Part shown: positions 27,819 to 62,099 of the stretch, piece after piece
How positions within the stretch are numbered: position 1 is the stretch's first letter
Layout: each line of letters begins with the position of its first letter
Assembly (NCBI RefSeq): GCF_016820655.1
Contig: NZ_WSFT01000016.1
Coordinates: 62,001 to 126,000 of the forward strand
Length of the DNA: 64,000 nucleotides
Direction of reading: 5' to 3'
DNA from: Anaeromonas frigoriresistens
Lineage (GTDB): Bacteria; Bacillota; Clostridia; Tissierellales; SIT17
Translations under genes and position numbers: made by a program
Notes under the pieces: generated by a model
Seen by the model: the letters and a program-made list of their open reading frames with translations, nothing else
Told to the model about the DNA's origin: nothing
Databases searched by the model: none

Positions 27819-27853
27819 AAAAGAACCTGGCCTATGGCCAGGTTCTTTTTTAA
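27819..27853. terminator. Terminator between rsmF and the ABC exporter operon
   Basis: A 12-bp perfect stem (AAGAACCTGGCC/GGCCAGGTTCTT) with a TAT loop and T6 on the + strand; the minus side has a shorter T run. It can serve both convergent units. Confidence 0.85.
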
Positions 27854-29667
27854 TATAAACTAACTTTTTCTTCTTTGAACTGATTAGTATAAAGATTATA
27901 GTAATAACCTCTATTCTGAATTAATTGTTTATGGGTTCCTTCTTCTACTATCTTTCCTTTTTTAACCACAAGTATTCTATCAGAGTTTACTATCGTAGAC
28001 AATCTGTGAGCAATTATAAAGCTAGTTCTACCCTTTAATACCTTTTGTATAGCATCTTGAATTTTCTTTTCAGTTTCTGTGTCAATAGATGAAGTGGCTT
28101 CATCTAAAACAAATATCTTAGGATTAGATACTATAGCTCTAGCAAAAGAAATTAATTGTTTCTGTCCTGTAGATAATTTCCCTCCTCCTTCGCCTACTTG
28201 TGTATCATATCCCTTTTCTAATTTAGTTATAAATTCATGAGCATTAACTAATTTAGCAGCTCTAATTACATCCATCTCAGTTGCATTTTTACTACCATAT
28301 CTTATATTTTCTATTATCGTTCCACTAAATAGATGGGGGCTTTGTAAAACATATCCTATATTAGAATGAAGCCATGGTAATGATCTTTCTCTATAATCAA
28401 TACCATCAATTAATACTTCTCCTTCGCTTGGCTCATAAAACCTACAAGCTAGATTAACTATTGTACTTTTACCCGATCCAGTTTCTCCTACCAAAGCAAT
28501 GGTTTCTCCTGCTCTTATATTTAAATTAAAATTATCTAATACCTTTTCACCGCTTTCATATTTAAATGTAACATTTCTATACTCTATATCTCCTTTTATA
28601 TCCTCCCAATTTTCATCCTTTGCATGGAGTATATCCCCATATTTTTCAATAACATCTTCTCTATCTTTTATAGTTGGCTCCATTTCTACTAAGGATAAAA
28701 CTCTTTCAGCAGAAGCTTGAGCAGCTTGAAGCTCAGCAAATACTCTAGCCAATTCTCTAACAGGTTCAAAAAATAATGCTGTATAAGATAAAAACGCTAC
28801 TAAAGTACCATAGGATATAGTATCTGTTAAGACACCCTTTCCACCAAACCATAAAGCCAATCCTGTACCTATACTTCCTAAGGTTAAAACTATAGGAAGA
28901 AATAAAGCTGAAAAAATTGCTGCTCTTATTGATACTAGTCTCATATTTCCAGTTAGATCTTTAAATTCATTTAAGTTTTCTTCTTCTCTAACTAAAGTTT
29001 TTGTGGTCTTAGCTCCACTTATTCCTTCACTGAAGCTTCCTGTGATTTGTGAGTTTATCTTTCTTACATCTCTATATGCTTTTAATATTTTCTTTTGAAA
29101 GTATATGCTAAGCATAGCCAATATCGGTACAACAGTTAGAGTAATAAGGGCCAACTTAAAATTAAGTATCAAAAGTACAACAGCAATACCAGACATAAAT
29201 GTTAATCCCCAAGCTGAATCTACTAATCCCCAACTTATTGTTTCTCCTAATCTTCTAACATCCGATGTCATCCTTGCCATTATCCATCCTGTAGGAGTTT
29301 TATCATAGTATGTAAAAGATAACTCTTGTAATTTTTTAAATCCTAACTTCCTAATATCATATTGAATACCCATTTCAACTTTTCCAGCTAAAGCAATAAA
29401 TGCCCATACATTTATTACTTGAATTATTATTAATACTCCATATATAATGGCAAATCTGCCTAATCCATCAATATTTCCTGGGACAACATAATTATCTATT
29501 GCCCTCCGAGTCATCAAAGGAAAAATTATATCAATCCCTGCAACACTTACCATTATAAATCCTAACATTATCAAATATTTCTTATATTTCTTCATGTATT
29601 TAAATATTTGTTTCCATACTCCTAAATCAAAATCATTATTATACTCTTGCTCTTTAAATCCTGTCAT
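27850..29667 (-). CDS. Heterodimeric ABC exporter subunit, second half
   Basis: A 605-residue half-transporter with six membrane helices (residues about 25-320) and an ABC ATPase domain: Walker A (LVGETGSGKSTIVNLACRF), signature LSTGQKQLISFARA and Walker B (IFVLDEATSSIDTETE). The signature LSTGQ and intact glutamate suggest the catalytically competent half of a BmrCD/TM287-288-type drug or lipid exporter. The ATG at 29667 lies 10 bases behind GGGG; an in-frame GTG at 29676 abuts that site. It follows its partner gene by 20 bases and is last in the operon. Confidence 0.93.
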   Translation of the reverse strand: MTGFKEQEYNNDFDLGVWKQIFKYMKKYKKYLIMLGFIMVSVAGIDIIFPLMTRRAIDNYVVPGNIDGLGRFAIIYGVLIIIQVINVWAFIALAGKVEMGIQYDIRKLGFKKLQELSFTYYDKTPTGWIMARMTSDVRRLGETISWGLVDSAWGLTFMSGIAVVLLILNFKLALITLTVVPILAMLSIYFQKKILKAYRDVRKINSQITGSFSEGISGAKTTKTLVREEENLNEFKDLTGNMRLVSIRAAIFSALFLPIVLTLGSIGTGLALWFGGKGVLTDTISYGTLVAFLSYTALFFEPVRELARVFAELQAAQASAERVLSLVEMEPTIKDREDVIEKYGDILHAKDENWEDIKGDIEYRNVTFKYESGEKVLDNFNLNIRAGETIALVGETGSGKSTIVNLACRFYEPSEGEVLIDGIDYRERSLPWLHSNIGYVLQSPHLFSGTIIENIRYGSKNATEMDVIRAAKLVNAHEFITKLEKGYDTQVGEGGGKLSTGQKQLISFARAIVSNPKIFVLDEATSSIDTETEKKIQDAIQKVLKGRTSFIIAHRLSTIVNSDRILVVKKGKIVEEGTHKQLIQNRGYYYNLYTNQFKEEKVSLY

Positions 29668-29686
29668 TCTGATCACTCCCCTCAGT

Positions 29687-31486
29687 CTATACTATTTTAT
29701 CCATCTCTGTTTCTAGACTGTTTTGTATAGTCCACACTCTTTTATAAAGTCCTTTTCTTTTAATTAATTCTTCATGGTTACCAGATTGAACTATTTTCCC
29801 ATTTTCCAAAACTATAATTTTATCAGCTCCAGCAATAGTGGATACTCTATGAGAAATTATAAAAGTCGTTACTCCACTTTTTCTTTTCTCTAATGCTTTT
29901 CTAATAGCTAAATCTGTCTCTGTATCTACAGCACTTAAAGAATCATCAAATATTAATATAGGACTATTATTTATTAATGTTCTAGCTATTGCTATTCTCT
30001 GTTTTTGTCCCCCAGATAATGTTACTCCCTTTTCTCCAACTTTAGTATCATATCCTCTTTCGAAATCTTCAATCACATTGTGAATAGCTGCTACTCTAGC
30101 AGATTCAATAATCTCTGCTTCTTTAGCTTCCAACTTTGCAAGGCTTATATTGTCTTTTATACTTCTTGAGAATAAAAATGGTTCTTGCAAAACTATTCCC
30201 ACATGTTTTCTAATCCATTTTTTTTGTATATTCTTAAGCTCAATTCCATCAATTTTTATTGATCCAGAGTTATATTCATACAGCCTAGCCAAAAGATGGA
30301 CTAGAGATGATTTACCCGACCCTGTTTGACCCATTATAGCTATAGTTTCTCCTTTATTTACTTCAAAAGAAATATTGTCTAGGGTTTTATTATCATTTTC
30401 ATAACTAAAAGATACATTTTCAAATTTAATATTACCTTTTATCTCTGGAGTCAATTCATTAGATTCTATCTCTTCTCTAGGTTCATCCAGTATTTCTCCA
30501 ATTCTCTCTAAAGATACCAGTGACTTCCCTAAATCAGTTAAAATACGTCCTAACTGCCTAACTGGCCACAATAGCATACCTTCATAACTAGTAAATACTA
30601 CTAAAGTACCTAATGTAATAGCTCCTGTAGTTGCCCAATATACACCTAAAATCAGTACAGAACCTATCTGTATTAAGCATAATAAATCTGATAATGCCCA
30701 ATAACCAGCTAGTAATCGAATTAATTTATAGGTTAAATATCTATAATTTTCATTTTTTTCTTCAAATTTATCGATCTCAAATTTTTCTTTTGAAAAAGCT
30801 CTAACTACTCTTACTCCACTTAAATTTTCTTGTAATACAGTAGACATCTCTGCCTCTGACTCATCTGATAGTTTAAAAGCTTTTTTTACTTTAAGAAAGA
30901 ATATTACTGAAAAAGCAAATATAATCGGTACTACTGCCATTGATATAAGGGCCATTTTTACATTCAATGAAAACATAATAATAGCTACAAAAGATATCAT
31001 AAATATAGCTCTACCTATTTCTACGAATTGTATAGCTAAGAATCTTCTTATTGTATCTACATCAGATGTACACCTTTGAATAAGATCTCCAGTCTCTGAC
31101 TTTACATGATAATCATAAGGTTGATGCTGTAGATGATCATATACACTTTCTCTAATATTTTTTGCGATAGATTCTGCCGCTTGAGCAGACCATTTTCCTT
31201 TAAAATAAAGAAATATACCTTGAATCATAGTAAGTATAACTAAGACTATTGCACTTATCCATAAATTATTTTCTAAAAAATCTATGCCTCCAATTTTATT
31301 TATGCTATTCATAACAATACTAGGAGCTTTTAAAGCTTTATCCCCAATTACTGAATCAATTGATACTTTTAGTACCAATGGATTTATTATTGAAGCAAAG
31401 GTTGCAAGCCCAATGCTTAGTACTGCTCCAATATATATTAATCTATTTCCTTTCATAAACTTCCATAATAATTTTAATCTATTCAT
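29687..31486 (-). CDS. Heterodimeric ABC exporter subunit, first half
   Basis: A 599-residue half-transporter, partner of the next gene. It has six membrane helices, then Walker A (IMGQTGSGKSSLVHLLARL), signature LSGGQKQRIAIARTL and Walker B (LIFDDSLSAVDTETD). The residue after Walker B is D-S instead of the usual catalytic glutamate, as in the degenerate nucleotide site of heterodimers such as BmrC. Together the pair likely exports drugs or other amphiphiles; the substrate is unknown. AAAGGAGG precedes the ATG. A 20-codon ORF lies just upstream. Confidence 0.93.
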   Translation of the reverse strand: MNRLKLLWKFMKGNRLIYIGAVLSIGLATFASIINPLVLKVSIDSVIGDKALKAPSIVMNSINKIGGIDFLENNLWISAIVLVILTMIQGIFLYFKGKWSAQAAESIAKNIRESVYDHLQHQPYDYHVKSETGDLIQRCTSDVDTIRRFLAIQFVEIGRAIFMISFVAIIMFSLNVKMALISMAVVPIIFAFSVIFFLKVKKAFKLSDESEAEMSTVLQENLSGVRVVRAFSKEKFEIDKFEEKNENYRYLTYKLIRLLAGYWALSDLLCLIQIGSVLILGVYWATTGAITLGTLVVFTSYEGMLLWPVRQLGRILTDLGKSLVSLERIGEILDEPREEIESNELTPEIKGNIKFENVSFSYENDNKTLDNISFEVNKGETIAIMGQTGSGKSSLVHLLARLYEYNSGSIKIDGIELKNIQKKWIRKHVGIVLQEPFLFSRSIKDNISLAKLEAKEAEIIESARVAAIHNVIEDFERGYDTKVGEKGVTLSGGQKQRIAIARTLINNSPILIFDDSLSAVDTETDLAIRKALEKRKSGVTTFIISHRVSTIAGADKIIVLENGKIVQSGNHEELIKRKGLYKRVWTIQNSLETEMDKIV

Positions 31487-31528
31487 TTTAAATACCTCCT
31501 TTAATGTTAATGATTATATATGACTTTG

Positions 31529-31591
31529 TTAGGGATCATTTATATATCCTTTTCCCAGCATTAATACAGTTTTAGTTATTTTAATTTTCAT
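31529..31591 (-). CDS. 20-codon ORF between the GNAT gene and the ABC exporter
   Basis: Begins MKIKITKTVLMLGKG and ends YINDP, with GGGAGG correctly spaced before the ATG. It lies 24 bases after the acetyltransferase stop and 42 bases before the exporter start. Drug exporters such as BmrCD have leader peptides at this position, so it could be a translational leader, but I see no terminator after it. It may also be chance. Confidence 0.4.
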   Translation of the reverse strand: MKIKITKTVLMLGKGYINDP

Positions 31592-31615
31592 ATTTCTACC
31601 TCCCACTTTATTTTA

Positions 31616-32581
31616 TTAGTTAATATCTAGTACTCTCTCATCAATACGTCTTACTAAACTATAAGTATATGGTGTAAAGTATTTAGTCCAAAAATAGCTT
31701 CCCAAATTGTTTATAGACTCAAAATCTACACCACATAGAGGATAATCATTATCTATTAACCATTTTTGTATATTATTTAATATCATAGCTCCGGCCTTTG
31801 ATCCCCTTTCCTCTTCAGTAGTATAAGCCCCTGTAATATTCATTATATTCTTGTGCTCAGAGATATAAGTTTCTCCTGTTGGTTCTAACATCATATAACC
31901 TATAGCTTTATTTTCCGTATAAGCAATCCATAAATGATGATTATCCTTACTTAACCAATTAATTAAATCTCTACTAGGATCCTCTTCATTTTTAGGAAAG
32001 AAAATAGGGGACTTTTTGTAGTACTTAATGTGTTCTCTGTGGATTTCTACTATATTAGAAATATCTGGTACATTTGCTTTTTTTACCTTAATGCTAGAAT
32101 TATATACATCTATAACCTCAGCTTTTCTAATTGCATCTACACATCTAAATCCAAAACCTTGCCAAGTCCATGTCTCTATATTTCTCCTATCATGGGCAAA
32201 AAACGTTAATGCATGGGTCATATATCCTTCTTTCACCCATCGATCAGCTGCATATTGATATAGTCCTTTATATATTTGTTCTCTATATTCCTTTTTTGCT
32301 CCATGGGCATATAATGGACTATATATTCCCTTACATTTTCCAAACAGTTCATCTACTTTAAGCCCAGTTATAAACCCTACTAATTGATCATTTAAAAGAG
32401 CTATAAAACCTATTTCATTTAAAATTAATTGTGACATTAATTCCTTAATTTTATTTAATTCAATAATATTATCTGGAAGTATATTCGTCACTTTTCTTTC
32501 ATCTTCATAAGATTCAATTACTAATTTGACAGCTTCATCTAAATGACTATTATTTAACTTATCATATTTAATATCTATAAT
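31616..32581 (-). CDS. GNAT family N-acetyltransferase (probable non-AUG start)
   Basis: Two GNAT-like halves: residues about 1-150 (LNEIGFIALLNDQLVGFITG) and 150-321 (KANVPDISNIVEIHREH, HLWIAYTENKAIGYMMLEP, EERGSKAGAMILNNIQKWL). The usual starts give only a 291-residue product beginning at GTG 32491. The frame stays open upstream and encodes a plausible GNAT N-terminus (LDEAVKLVIESYEDERK) back to a strong GGAGGA site, with only ATT (32584, 32581) and ATA (32578) as initiation candidates before a TGA. I list the ATT at 32581. It follows the DJ-1 gene closely and precedes the exporter, suggesting a modification-plus-efflux operon. The substrate is unknown. Confidence 0.75.
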   Translation of the reverse strand: MIDIKYDKLNNSHLDEAVKLVIESYEDERKVTNILPDNIIELNKIKELMSQLILNEIGFIALLNDQLVGFITGLKVDELFGKCKGIYSPLYAHGAKKEYREQIYKGLYQYAADRWVKEGYMTHALTFFAHDRRNIETWTWQGFGFRCVDAIRKAEVIDVYNSSIKVKKANVPDISNIVEIHREHIKYYKKSPIFFPKNEEDPSRDLINWLSKDNHHLWIAYTENKAIGYMMLEPTGETYISEHKNIMNITGAYTTEEERGSKAGAMILNNIQKWLIDNDYPLCGVDFESINNLGSYFWTKYFTPYTYSLVRRIDERVLDIN

Positions 32582-32598
32582 AATTCCTCCTCACTTTC

Positions 32599-33168
32599 TT
32601 AACTAATAACATTTTCTCTTACATTAAAATATTTAAAATATTTGATTGTTTCCTGTAAATCTGCTTCATTTTCATAAATATTCATTATTTTTCCTAATTC
32701 TAGAGCAAAATCTACATATCCGCTAGCTTTTGCTGTTATTATGTTTCCATCCACCACTACATTTTCATCAACAAATTCACTTTCATTAAAATCTTTAAAT
32801 TCTACTATTGGTAATGTTGTAGTATATTTTCTTCCTTTTAAAACTCCGGCCTTTGCTAAAGATAATGGTGCAGCACATATAGCCCCTATAGTTTTACCCT
32901 GACTATTTAATTTGTCAATCACTTCCATTAACTTCTTATCATTTATTAAGTGCTGAGGATCTCCTCCAGGTAGAATAAGTAAATCAACATCTTTAATATC
33001 TACTTCCTCTAATGTAATATGGGGCAAAGTTCTAAACCCTTCCCAAGATGTTACTTCTTTATTATTTAGCCCTACAGTTACTATTTCTCCTTTCGTCTTC
33101 ATAAAATAATTAGATAAAACCACTTCAAATTGTACAAACCCTTCATAAATTAATACATAAGTTTTCAT
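32599..33168 (-). CDS. DJ-1/PfpI family protein
   Basis: A 189-residue cytoplasmic protein of the DJ-1/ThiJ/PfpI superfamily. The nucleophile elbow is AICAAPLSLAKAG with the conserved cysteine; the glutamate-bearing first strand (LIYEGFVQFE) and the LLILPGGDP strand are present. Members are glyoxalase- or deglycase-like or chaperone-like; the exact activity cannot be told. CAGGAGTG precedes the ATG. It is the first structural gene after the tandem-terminator leader at 33201-33484, with no promoter visible between the second terminator and its start. Confidence 0.9.
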   Translation of the reverse strand: MKTYVLIYEGFVQFEVVLSNYFMKTKGEIVTVGLNNKEVTSWEGFRTLPHITLEEVDIKDVDLLILPGGDPQHLINDKKLMEVIDKLNSQGKTIGAICAAPLSLAKAGVLKGRKYTTTLPIVEFKDFNESEFVDENVVVDGNIITAKASGYVDFALELGKIMNIYENEADLQETIKYFKYFNVRENVIS

Positions 33169-33200
33169 TGAATCACTCCTGTTATTTTTTTATTTATGTA

Positions 33201-33234
33201 ATAAAAAAGCCATGGATTTATAAATCCATGGCTT
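33201..33234 (-). terminator. Second leader terminator before the DJ-1/GNAT/ABC operon
   Basis: The 28-base palindrome with arms AAGCCATGGATTTA and TAAATCCATGGCTT is followed by TTTTTTATT on the minus strand, 33 bases before the DJ-1 gene. Its 5' arm (33224-33234) can also pair for 11 bp, with two G-U pairs, with the 3' arm of the first leader terminator (33291-33301). Confidence 0.8.
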
Positions 33235-33284
33235 AGAAAGCAAACTATTATCCTATTTTGTATAAATATATACTAAAAATAGAC

Positions 33285-33318
33285 AATAAAAAACCATAGA
33301 TATCTTAATACCTATGGT
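33285..33318 (-). terminator. First leader terminator (attenuator) with competing antiterminator
   Basis: An 11-bp stem (ACCATAGGTAT/ATATCTATGGT, one G-U) with a 4-base loop, followed by a T run on the minus strand. The 5' arm contains CCATAGGT (33310-33317), the exact complement of ACCTATGG in codons 21-23 of the leader ORF (33351-33358). The two structures exclude each other. Confidence 0.8.
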
Positions 33319-33337
33319 TAGTAATCAAGTTAAAAAA

Positions 33338-33418
33338 CTATAAATAACTCCCATAGGTCGCACTCATATAACTGAATTTAGGTGATAAATTAGTTAATCC
33401 ATTAATTAAAGTTTTCAT
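33338..33418 (-). CDS. 26-residue leader peptide of the DJ-1/GNAT/ABC exporter operon
   Basis: A short ORF with AAAGGAGG 8 bases before its ATG and a consensus promoter 31 bases upstream. The peptide begins MKTLINGLTN, has a middle LSPKFSY and ends MSATYGSYL. The codons for Thr-Tyr-Gly (21-23) form the first strand of an antiterminator. A ribosome finishing the ORF would cover that strand and let the terminator form; a ribosome stalled earlier would leave it free. The peptide matches nothing I know. Context (acetyltransferase plus ABC exporter) suggests induction by a translation-targeting inhibitor, which is inference. Confidence 0.75.
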   Translation of the reverse strand: MKTLINGLTNLSPKFSYMSATYGSYL

Positions 33419-33455
33419 TAATACGACCTCCTTTTTTGAGTTATTTTACTAATTA

Positions 33456-33484
33456 AGTATAATATATTTTTCAGAATATTTCAA
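33456..33484 (-). promoter_or_regulatory. Sigma-A promoter of the leader and exporter operon
   Basis: TTGAAA, a 17-base spacer, TATACT on the minus strand. The predicted start near 33449 gives a 30-base untranslated region before the leader ORF. Confidence 0.8.
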
Positions 33485-33554
33485 GTCTTTTTTTAATAAA
33501 TAATTTTCTGAAATAATAATTTTTGTTCTAAAAGCCTTTTCCCTTCTTCTATAC

Positions 33555-33604
33555 TTAAATATAAAAGATATGAAAAAATCCAATAACATTATTTCATATC
33601 TTTT
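33555..33604 (-). terminator. Terminator overlapping the end of ytrI
   Basis: The stem AAAAGATATGAAA/TTTCATATCTTTT with a 16-base loop; the 5' arm includes the last codons of the gene. The tail is only moderately U-rich. Confidence 0.55.
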
Positions 33605-34053
33605 ACTTCTATATATATTTCTAAAATATCACTTAATAATACTTTTTTCACTTGAAGCTTATAAGAATTCTCCTCAAATTTCATTATTCTATTATCTACA
33701 ATTTCTGAAATAATATTTATATCAATATCTTTAACTTCTTTTCCTATTAGATTAATATATTTTTCTTTTATATGCTTTATTAATTCTATCTCGTCAATTT
33801 CATCATTAATGTTTTCTAATTTTATATTTATATCTTTTAGAATATATCTATTTTTATTTATAGATTCCTCTAATTTATTTAATTTTAAATCTTTTTCTTC
33901 AAGTAAAGTATAATATACATTTAATCTCTGATAATACTCATCTATCTTGTAAGATACAAATATTGTAACTGTAAGGCTTCCAATTATCATCCCAATTATC
34001 ATACCCATTATCAAAGTTATAAAAAACTTATTAATCCCCTTTACTCTATCCAT
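33589..34053 (-). CDS. ytrI: YtrI-like sporulation membrane protein
   Basis: 154 residues: one N-terminal membrane segment (FFITLIMGMIIGMIIGSLTV), then a coiled coil (EEKDLKLNKLEESINKNRYI) and a small C-terminal alpha/beta domain ending SDILEIYIEVKD. It overlaps the end of ytrH by 13 bases. Bacillus YtrI has the same size and layout and pairs with YtrH, both required for normal sporulation; sequence similarity is weak, so the call rests mainly on synteny and architecture. Confidence 0.7.
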   Translation of the reverse strand: MDRVKGINKFFITLIMGMIIGMIIGSLTVTIFVSYKIDEYYQRLNVYYTLLEEKDLKLNKLEESINKNRYILKDINIKLENINDEIDEIELIKHIKEKYINLIGKEVKDIDINIISEIVDNRIMKFEENSYKLQVKKVLLSDILEIYIEVKDMK

Positions 34054-35657: not shown

Positions 35658-35761
35658 AACTCTTATCCAGAGAGGTGGAGGGGCTGGCCCGATGAAACCC
35701 GGCAACCTATGCTATAAGCATAAGGTGCTAATTCCTGCGGTATATACCGACAGATGAGAGA
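35658..35761 (+). ncRNA. SAM-I riboswitch (S-box) upstream of metNIQ
   Basis: The S-box core is easily read: CTCTTATCCAGAGAGGTGGAG, then CCGATGAAACCCGGCAACC, then GGTGCTAATTCCTGC and closing GATGAGAG. P1 forms between CTCTTATC and GATGAGAG. When SAM is absent, ATGAGAGAGGA can instead pair with TCCTCTTTCAT as antiterminator, freeing the metNIQ genes. Confidence 0.97.
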
Positions 35762-61927: not shown

Positions 61928-61964
61928 AAAAACCTGTGACACTATAAAAAATAGTCCCACAGGT
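61928..61964 (-). terminator. NiCo riboswitch terminator
   Basis: ACCTGTG pairs with CACAGGT, then an internal loop and ACTAT/ATAGT, followed by TTTTT on the minus strand. The ACCTGTG arm is also part of the last aptamer stem, so metal binding would prevent termination. Confidence 0.85.
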
Positions 61965-62024
61965 TTTATACCTGTTGCCTGTTAAGCCCGGCTGCAATGA
62001 TATAACATTCGCCTGATCTATGTC
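61951..62024 (-). ncRNA. NiCo (czcD) riboswitch
   Basis: On the minus strand: ATCAGGCGAATG, then a short stem, TGCAGCCGGGC, TTAACAGGCAACAGGT, and finally ACCTGTGGGACTAT. GCAGCCGGGC and GGCAACAG are the invariant parts of this cobalt/nickel-binding four-way-junction RNA. It lies immediately before a CDF exporter, its classic target, and has an overlapping terminator. Confidence 0.93.
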
Positions 62025-62099
62025 GTATTAAATTATTAATTCATTTTATGCTAAGTATATTAATTTTGTTCCTTAAAATTTTTATGGATTTATTAGAAC

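Follow-up and report, generated by a model that had tools for sequence, protein, structure and literature searches.

The window, a stretch of 64,000 nt from the Anaeromonas frigoriresistens genome, carries upstream of an ABC exporter operon a leader that is very probably a conserved attenuator. Our preferred reading, which we consider rather likely, is a ribosome-mediated attenuator of the bmrB/vmlR kind that is independent of its peptide, uses the leader's own Shine-Dalgarno sequence as one arm of the anti-antiterminator and, in most members, relays its decision to a second terminator. Peptide independence, the Shine-Dalgarno arm and the relay appear to be what is new compared to bmrB/vmlR-type attenuators.

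All parts of the leader and the operon genes lie on the minus strand. A promoter, TTGAAA-17-TATACT (33456..33484, a 10/12 match), precedes an ORF of 26 codons plus stop (33338..33418; product MKTLINGLTNLSPKFSYMSATYGSYL) with a strong ribosome-binding site, AAAGGAGG. Chance alone accounts for as many promoter-like matches in DNA this rich in AT (6 seen vs 7.8 expected); TTGAAA-17-TATAAT stands ahead of the leader in the congeners G001-G003, as judged by eye. Downstream of the ORF are terminators T1 (33292..33319; 12 bp, −12.9 kcal/mol), with its U tract at 33285-33291, and T2 (33207..33234; 12 bp, −17.3 kcal/mol). These were the two terminators detected at 32800-33800, compared to 0.2 expected. 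They are followed by genes for a DJ-1/PfpI family protein (32599..33168) and a GNAT acetyltransferase (31616..32491), a 20-codon small ORF (31529..31591) directly 5' of the exporter genes, ABC exporter half 1 (ABC1; 29687..31486), which has a BmrC-like position and whose homologues carry the leader, and ABC exporter half 2 (27850..29676). We found no internal terminator at 31300-32700, and promoter-like sites there number 5 vs 10.8 expected by chance. Recomputation on the window reproduced the promoter, the 26-codon ORF, the two terminators and both complementarities of the initial annotation at their claimed places, and the DJ-1, GNAT and two ABC exporter genes do lie 3' of the leader on the same strand.

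The proposed switch would consist of six RNA segments: region 1 is the Shine-Dalgarno region, region 2 is the 3' end of the ORF, regions 3 and 4 are the arms of T1, and regions 5 and 6 are those of T2. Region 2 (33351..33364) has two predicted partners; its segment AGUGCGACCU pairs with region 1 and its segment ACCUAUGG with region 3. For 2:3, ACCTATGG (33358-33351) is the exact complement of CCATAGGT in the T1 5' arm, giving a short helix of only 8 bp (−13.5 kcal/mol). For 4:5, a segment of the T1 3' arm (33291..33301) pairs with a segment of the T2 5' arm (33224..33234) over 11 bp, including two G-U pairs (−13.0 kcal/mol). Both of these pairings recur in relatives, and each reached P = 0.01 in the window (200 shuffles of the partner). 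The initial annotation overlooked the most telling pairing, that of the Shine-Dalgarno region with the end of the ORF. Here, AGGUCGUAUU (33429-33420), the Shine-Dalgarno side arm, pairs with AGUGCGACCU (33364-33355, codons 19-22) over 10 bp (−15.0 kcal/mol). In the minimum-energy structure of the window species this 1:2 helix is lengthened by 9 bp between the 5' UTR stretch AAATAACTC (33446-33438) and GAGTTATTT (33350-33342). In the window species GAGTTATTT coincides with the GSYL end of the peptide, and its pairing may explain why this end is conserved in the genus. We hold with good confidence that the Shine-Dalgarno pairing acts as the anti-antiterminator. At the sequence level, the leader combines a predicted intrinsic terminator with a mutually exclusive antiterminator.

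The GNAT gene was tried as a search anchor and rejected. It gave a single locus from the contig scan, and no GNAT homologue was found at E ≤ 1e-20 in the three congeners searched, so the exporter was taken as the anchor. A DNA search with the leader across the genus (4 genomes) returned one clear near-full-length match in each (E 6.6e-161 to 2.2e-23) as well as many short matches at chance level. In the three congeners the leader stands immediately 5' of the first ABC gene, with a small ORF intervening in G002. The DJ-1 and GNAT genes are found between leader and exporter only in the window species (1 of 4 in the genus), and both would therefore be under leader control by position. These data indicate that the leader belongs with the BmrCD-like exporter pair and not with GNAT, which corrects the initial annotation. 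Homologues of the GNAT (46-54% identity) were also observed in G011, where three copies, two of them in tandem, lie on contigs (C86 and C150; L005, L011, L012) other than that of the G011 leader-ABC locus. The 20-codon ORF at 31529-31591 (minus strand) reads MKIKITKTVLMLGKGYINDP, and its end overlaps another tiny ORF (MIPN..., by eye). The congener G002 has the same pair of small ORFs, and ORFs of 16-25 codons with strong ribosome-binding sites occupy this place in several other relatives. This small ORF is possibly a second regulatory or coupling step.

An ABC1 protein search of 60 genomes gave 43 with a match at E ≤ 1e-150, the window genome included. Of the 42 ABC1 homologues found elsewhere in the order, 37 are preceded by a Shine-Dalgarno sequence, a short ORF and a T1 hairpin (29 of 29 loci L022-L050, L092, L100 and 6 of 11 further loci). 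The remaining five had no leader within 1000 nt upstream. These are G025, which retains one like hairpin (R1 covariance model, below; 29.4 bits), and four genomes of one family (f19), whose ABC1 copies are distant (44-46% identity). The gene upstream of the leader differs by eye (YtrI-like in the window vs RecX-like in G003 and G001), and the leader stays with the exporter.

We assessed spread with a covariance model, R1, of region 2 plus T1, built from 24 seeds that match it by construction. Within the order R1 matched in 49 of 249 genomes, seeds included; it also matched in 9 of 391 genomes searched for the class, 6 of them outside the order, and in 3 of 398 genomes searched for the phylum, 2 of them outside the class. 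Because the large searches used strict filters and R1 was built without divergent leaders such as L045 and L047-L049, these counts are lower bounds. The exact pattern GGAGGTCGTR-N40..70-CACGACCTRTG gave one match in the 391 genomes of the class and is too tight to gauge spread. Most R1 matches stand 5' of ABC1, and so does a leader found outside the class (L125, 56% identity). Four leaders (L101, L103, L105 and L107) precede similar transporter genes of ~300 codons, of which the one tested, at L103, is EamA by Pfam. Another (L096) is flanked by two MFS-like genes, of which that on the downstream side is MFS_1 by Pfam. In one genome (G451; L104/L122) a leader with both terminators precedes two small ORFs (59 and 60 codons) that resemble each other, neither of which had a Pfam match. 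A leader-like element in G817 (L124) lies ~300 nt 5' of a putative solute-binding protein gene (by eye), the sole non-exporter transport context that we saw. Near a contig end (L099, G014:C244), a leader copy is followed by more hairpins, with no ORF of more than 42 codons before a convergent 604-codon frame; it is a possible orphan copy or standing RNA. Rfam 15 at the gathering score placed no family over the leader in the window, where only the SAM and NiCo riboswitches matched elsewhere, and none over the leader at 15 related loci, where only a SAM riboswitch away from the leader (L023) matched. On sequence evidence, then, the leader is a conserved element at drug-exporter-like genes (ABC, EamA, MFS) in several Bacillota, widespread and not the oddity of one genome. 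A riboswitch was rejected as an identity for the element, there being no Rfam match, and a terminator of the upstream gene was also rejected.

We examined 59 loci, leaving out L098 (without a Shine-Dalgarno sequence and likely false) and L057 and L088 (cut by contig ends). With four divergent leaders included and six further loci added, 66 leaders were parsed. Loss of the ORF frame or ribosome-binding site in orthologues had been named as a check, and both proved to be kept: an ORF was called by script behind the Shine-Dalgarno sequence at the same place in 60 of the 66 leaders, and by eye in five of the other six. Among those six, L084, L089, L090 and L100 have a leader with a variant Shine-Dalgarno sequence (GAAGG/GGGGG; L100 also has a GTG start), and the GGUCGUG partner of region 2 is kept there. 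In L044 the stop codon and T1 are separated by over 95 nt, and L083 lacks both a Shine-Dalgarno sequence and a leader ORF. Wherever an ORF was called (60 leaders), T1 starts 6-42 nt 3' of the stop codon. The script tolerated a stop codon at most 12 nt inside T1 and would have discarded deeper overlaps, of which there was none among the six dropped leaders. This set contains near copies (L037/L052 and L040/L041) and two copies in one genome with an identical leader peptide (L064 and L081); L124 and L125 were judged by eye and are outside all counts of 60.

For each of 60 leaders, duplex energies were computed between fixed segments (from the Shine-Dalgarno sequence to the start codon, the final 48 nt of the ORF, either half of T1 and the 5' half of T2) and compared with 200 shuffles of the partner, dinucleotide-preserving where possible. 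The mean for 1:2 was −14.1 compared to −7.8 shuffled (P ≤ 0.05 in 53/60, not significant in 7), and for 2:3 it was −16.3 compared to −8.4 (P ≤ 0.05 in 52/60, not significant in 8). For 4:5, scored in the 53 leaders that have another hairpin no more than 160 nt away, the mean was −15.2 compared to −7.8 shuffled (P ≤ 0.05 in 48, not significant in 5). Exchanging partners between leaders gave a weaker mean energy in every one of 5000 permutations for 1:2, 2:3 and 4:5 alike, and did so too among 14 chosen divergent leaders (10 for 4:5); this test covers related genomes and a few near copies, and corrects only in part for kinship. The shuffles and the partner-swap signal of 2:3 support the original proposal of a leader-ORF attenuator whose antiterminator excludes T1.

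Covariation of the pairs in related genomes, which had been set beforehand as a test, is present. The region 1/2 pair is AGGUCGUG/CACGACCU in many leaders, and the whole helix is replaced in a compensatory manner by GUCCGAUUAUG/CAUAAUCGGAU in L045 and by GGAGGACAA/UUGUCCUUC in L118. T1 and T2 arms co-vary as well; the sequence is usually CCAUAGG, with CCGUAGG in L047 and L049, CCACAGG in L045 and, by eye, CCACAG in L125. Helices 1:2 and 2:3 overlap within region 2 in 55 of 60 leaders. Comparison of the leaders thus establishes the predicted pairings and their co-evolution, together with frame independence and a conserved position at exporters. Tandem terminators elsewhere in the fetched DNA amounted to only 5 pairs, two of them with a leader hairpin. 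Since these were too few, random pairs of 86 non-leader terminators served as the control for 4:5 (mean −4.6; 1.5% reached −13).

The idea that the freed T1 3' arm takes the T2 5' arm held in most leaders with a T2 and failed in the two f15 leaders (L117, L118; P = 0.45, pairing absent) and in L112, L052 and L091 (not significant). A T2 with like arms was not found in the EamA-linked leaders. Given these and the f15 leaders, the relay does not extend to every member; we regard it as somewhat probable that 4:5 works as a relay in most of them. In L027 and L029, of one genus, T1 has no U tract and its hairpin is retained ahead of a good T2, so that this hairpin would matter mainly via the relay.

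We folded the growing window transcript with positions masked as by a ribosome. Without a ribosome, 1:2 formed. With the start codon masked, 2:3 was at 0.72 once the T1 5' arm was out; once the T2 5' arm was out, 2:3 was at 0.67, 4:5 at 0.75 and T1 at 0.06. At this latter stage T1 reached 0.92-0.96 when the ribosome stood at codon 21 or on the stop codon, compared to 0.55 in its absence. Masking at codon 8 gave much the same fold as no ribosome, with 1:2 intact, because the Shine-Dalgarno sequence is free again. Since the anti-antiterminator is built from the leader's own Shine-Dalgarno sequence, a codon 8 ribosome would leave the window switch closed in the model. In the model, the claim that an early stall opens both terminators is thus borne out for a ribosome on the start codon and not for one at codon 8. 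Of the 60 leaders, 40 gained more than 0.1 in 2:3 under the start mask and not one showed a fall; in 58, 2:3 was higher with this mask than with the stop mask. The start mask raised 4:5 in 25 of 53 leaders and lowered it in 4. It had no real effect in 20 of 60, mostly because 2:3 already forms without a ribosome. With T1 complete and T2 not begun, window equilibrium put T1 at 0.93-0.96 in every state (0.93 with a start-codon ribosome). Equilibrium therefore favours complete T1, and the ON state would have to be kinetic, decided before the T1 3' arm emerges.

From the masked-folding pattern we infer that the input is a slow or queued ribosome on the leader Shine-Dalgarno sequence and start codon; that start-codon occupancy is the input seems to us modestly favoured by the model. 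In the proposed mechanism, an untranslated leader would be OFF: 1:2 would hide the leader Shine-Dalgarno sequence, and region 3 would be free to form T1. Fast translation would also give OFF, with the ribosome at the stop codon covering region 2 while regions 3 and 4 are made, so that T1 forms. Polymerases slipping past T1 would encounter T2. In the ON state, start-codon inhibitors, a general slow-down or queues would keep a ribosome at the start codon or close to it; this ribosome would mask region 1, and region 2 would pair with the emerging region 3. Free region 4 would then pair with region 5, opening T2 too, and the exporter operon would be transcribed. This scheme presumes that ribosome position is the signal, that the steps follow one another as described, that antibiotics are inducers in nature and that the terminators act in the cell. 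A fuller formulation is a six-segment relay that senses occupancy of its own Shine-Dalgarno sequence independently of peptide and codons, hands strands over at 2:3 and then 4:5, and serves as a module for unrelated exporters (ABC, EamA, MFS) in several Bacillota lineages; we offer it tentatively, at a little under even confidence.

A simpler attenuator, in which any early stall opens both terminators and 1:2 merely tunes leader translation, shares the real pairings 2:3 and 4:5 with our reading, and fits the good part of the leaders in which 2:3 forms without any ribosome. We consider it unlikely. In the window a ribosome at codon 8 gives the no-ribosome fold with 1:2 intact, mean 2:3 over the 60 leaders is 0.79 both for codon 8 and for no ribosome (single leaders differ either way), and the partner-swap signal of 1:2 is the same as that of 2:3. 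Alternatively, T1 and T2 could be two strong constitutive terminators with a decoy ORF, complementary because they are copies of one hairpin. Their arms are indeed shared in most leaders with both, but the loops and flanks differ, and regions 1 and 2 lie outside both terminators and yet region 2 tracks region 1 and the T1 5' arm. That the leader stays with the exporter while the gene upstream changes also speaks against this explanation, which we find hardly credible.

Two further explanations would place the signal in the peptide or its codons. The leader peptides have 18-60 residues and no common motif in their bodies, as judged by eye. The CGACC/CGGCC core of region 2, at a distance of 12-31 nt (median 16) from the 3' end of the stop codon, is read in frames 0, 1 and 2 in 38, 11 and 2 of the 60 leaders, respectively, with another core in 9. 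Frame 0 yields Arg-Pro; the product of frame 1 is mostly Thr-Thr, and that of frame 2 is Arg/Gly-Asp-Leu. As region 2 is read in all three frames, what is conserved is the RNA and not the peptide. A drug-dependent arrest like that of ErmCL, in which the nascent peptide with Arg-Pro near its end stalls the ribosome and the RNA rearranges, would suit the 38 of 60 leaders that give Arg-Pro, often as RPV or RPM. We judge it quite unlikely: 13 leaders use the two other frames (TTY, TTC, TTN, AAY, SAY, RDL, GDL) and 9 have another core, no arrest peptide is conserved in a fixed frame among the 60, their bodies share no motif, and a stall at Arg-Pro would cover region 2, favouring termination as the stop mask does. 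An effect of Arg-Pro is possible in the frame-0 majority. Attenuation as in trp leaders, with scarce charged tRNA stalling the ribosome early, agrees with the modelled release of region 2 by a ribosome positioned right where the ORF begins, and the putative solute-binding protein gene at L124 is one hint for nutrition. The 60 leaders have no codon run for a regulated amino acid; positions 2-9 resemble AT-rich coding sequence (Leu in 87%, Ile in 78% and Lys in 57%), and the downstream genes are mostly exporters, not biosynthetic. We regard trp-like attenuation as very improbable, and a trp-type codon sensor was rejected. Limitation of a particular early codon, suggested in the initial annotation, is likewise unlikely as the input, given that the peptide is not conserved and region 2 occurs in three frames.

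Our preferred attenuator has relatives among known systems, compared here from the accessible portions of the cited articles. By position and gene the closest is bmrB-bmrCD, and by logic it is vmlR. The bmrB leader of the Bacillus subtilis bmrCD multidrug exporter is induced by three 50S inhibitors, chloramphenicol, erythromycin and lincomycin, and loss of its translation abolishes induction and lowers expression (PMC4191407). Its terminator, antiterminator and predicted anti-antiterminator, whose role was called unclear, lie in nt 60-162 of a 162-bp ORF (PMC4191407). Both elements have a small translated ORF, as predicted here, 5' of a heterodimeric ABC exporter pair and three alternative structures. 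Compared by description, ours differs in having T1 3' of the stop codon, the Shine-Dalgarno sequence in the anti-antiterminator and mostly a chained second terminator. In none of the 60 leaders are all three structures inside the ORF, and with T1 outside it this is not a bmrB-type leader by that feature.

In the vmlR leader of B. subtilis, a stalled ribosome prevents an anti-antiterminator and permits the antiterminator (PMC9226507); in the cplR leader of Clostridioides difficile, it prevents a 5' hairpin that holds the uORF, with the same outcome (PMC10201436). The likeness to our model is a short uORF on which a stalled ribosome permits an antiterminator. As described, these systems differ in their very short uORFs (MIN, MRI) inside the hairpin, their ABCF ribosome-protection genes, and the use of one terminator plus sequestration of the gene's own Shine-Dalgarno sequence. 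In vmlR, the predicted Shine-Dalgarno sequence of the uORF is described as single-stranded before the hairpin, not as a hairpin arm (PMC9226507). The toiL uORF of Escherichia coli topAI senses several classes of ribosome inhibitor without one arrest site, including start-codon stalls by tetracycline and retapamulin (PMC12121999). Sensing of several inhibitor classes, start-codon stalls included, would be shared; unlike our leader, toiL is described as acting on topAI translation and then Rho-dependent termination, and a stall anywhere in its ORF counts. The ABC-leaders are predicted attenuators 5' of ABC transporters, one of them at a Lactobacillus multidrug exporter, for which the accessible description gives no leader ORF (PMC2965389). 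The rimP-leader of some Gammaproteobacteria has two tandem terminators with inverse stem motifs, a possible antiterminator and a protein proposed as regulator (PMC2965389). By that description it is a partial precedent for linked terminators, and its proposed protein regulator is unlike the leader here. In the accessible literature, to which subscription papers contribute little, we found no system that joins its own Shine-Dalgarno sequence as an anti-antiterminator arm with a chained second terminator. Searches for tandem terminators with leader peptides and for uORF attenuation at multidrug exporters did not return this element among sources that take in few subscription papers or preprints. 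A search joining leader peptide, EamA, attenuation and antibiotic returned nothing, and the accessible portions of two structured-RNA surveys (PMC8632094, PMC11109978) do not mention the element.

Known antibiotic-sensing leaders, as far as these sources describe them, depend on arrest peptides, on uORFs of very few codons or on stalling at points along a uORF. If our reading is true, this leader would respond to the very fact that a ribosome is delayed in initiation or early elongation, and hence to ribosome-blocking antibiotics generally and not to one drug. That would explain why one kind of leader stands at unrelated exporters. It would also show how, in nature, a single decision can open two terminators by way of a pairing relay. 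Being conserved, covarying and without an Rfam match, the element may serve as a marker for possibly drug-inducible exporters in little-studied Bacillota.

Other regulatory features were observed in the window. A promoter-like site in the GNAT/DJ-1 gap (32526-32553, plus strand; TTGACA-16-TATTAT, 11/12) lies opposite to the operon, is directed towards the leader and could give rise to an antisense RNA. A SAM riboswitch (35660-35760, plus strand) stands ahead of a putative methionine-type ABC importer operon, as judged from the translations, and a NiCo riboswitch lies at 61950-62031 (minus strand).
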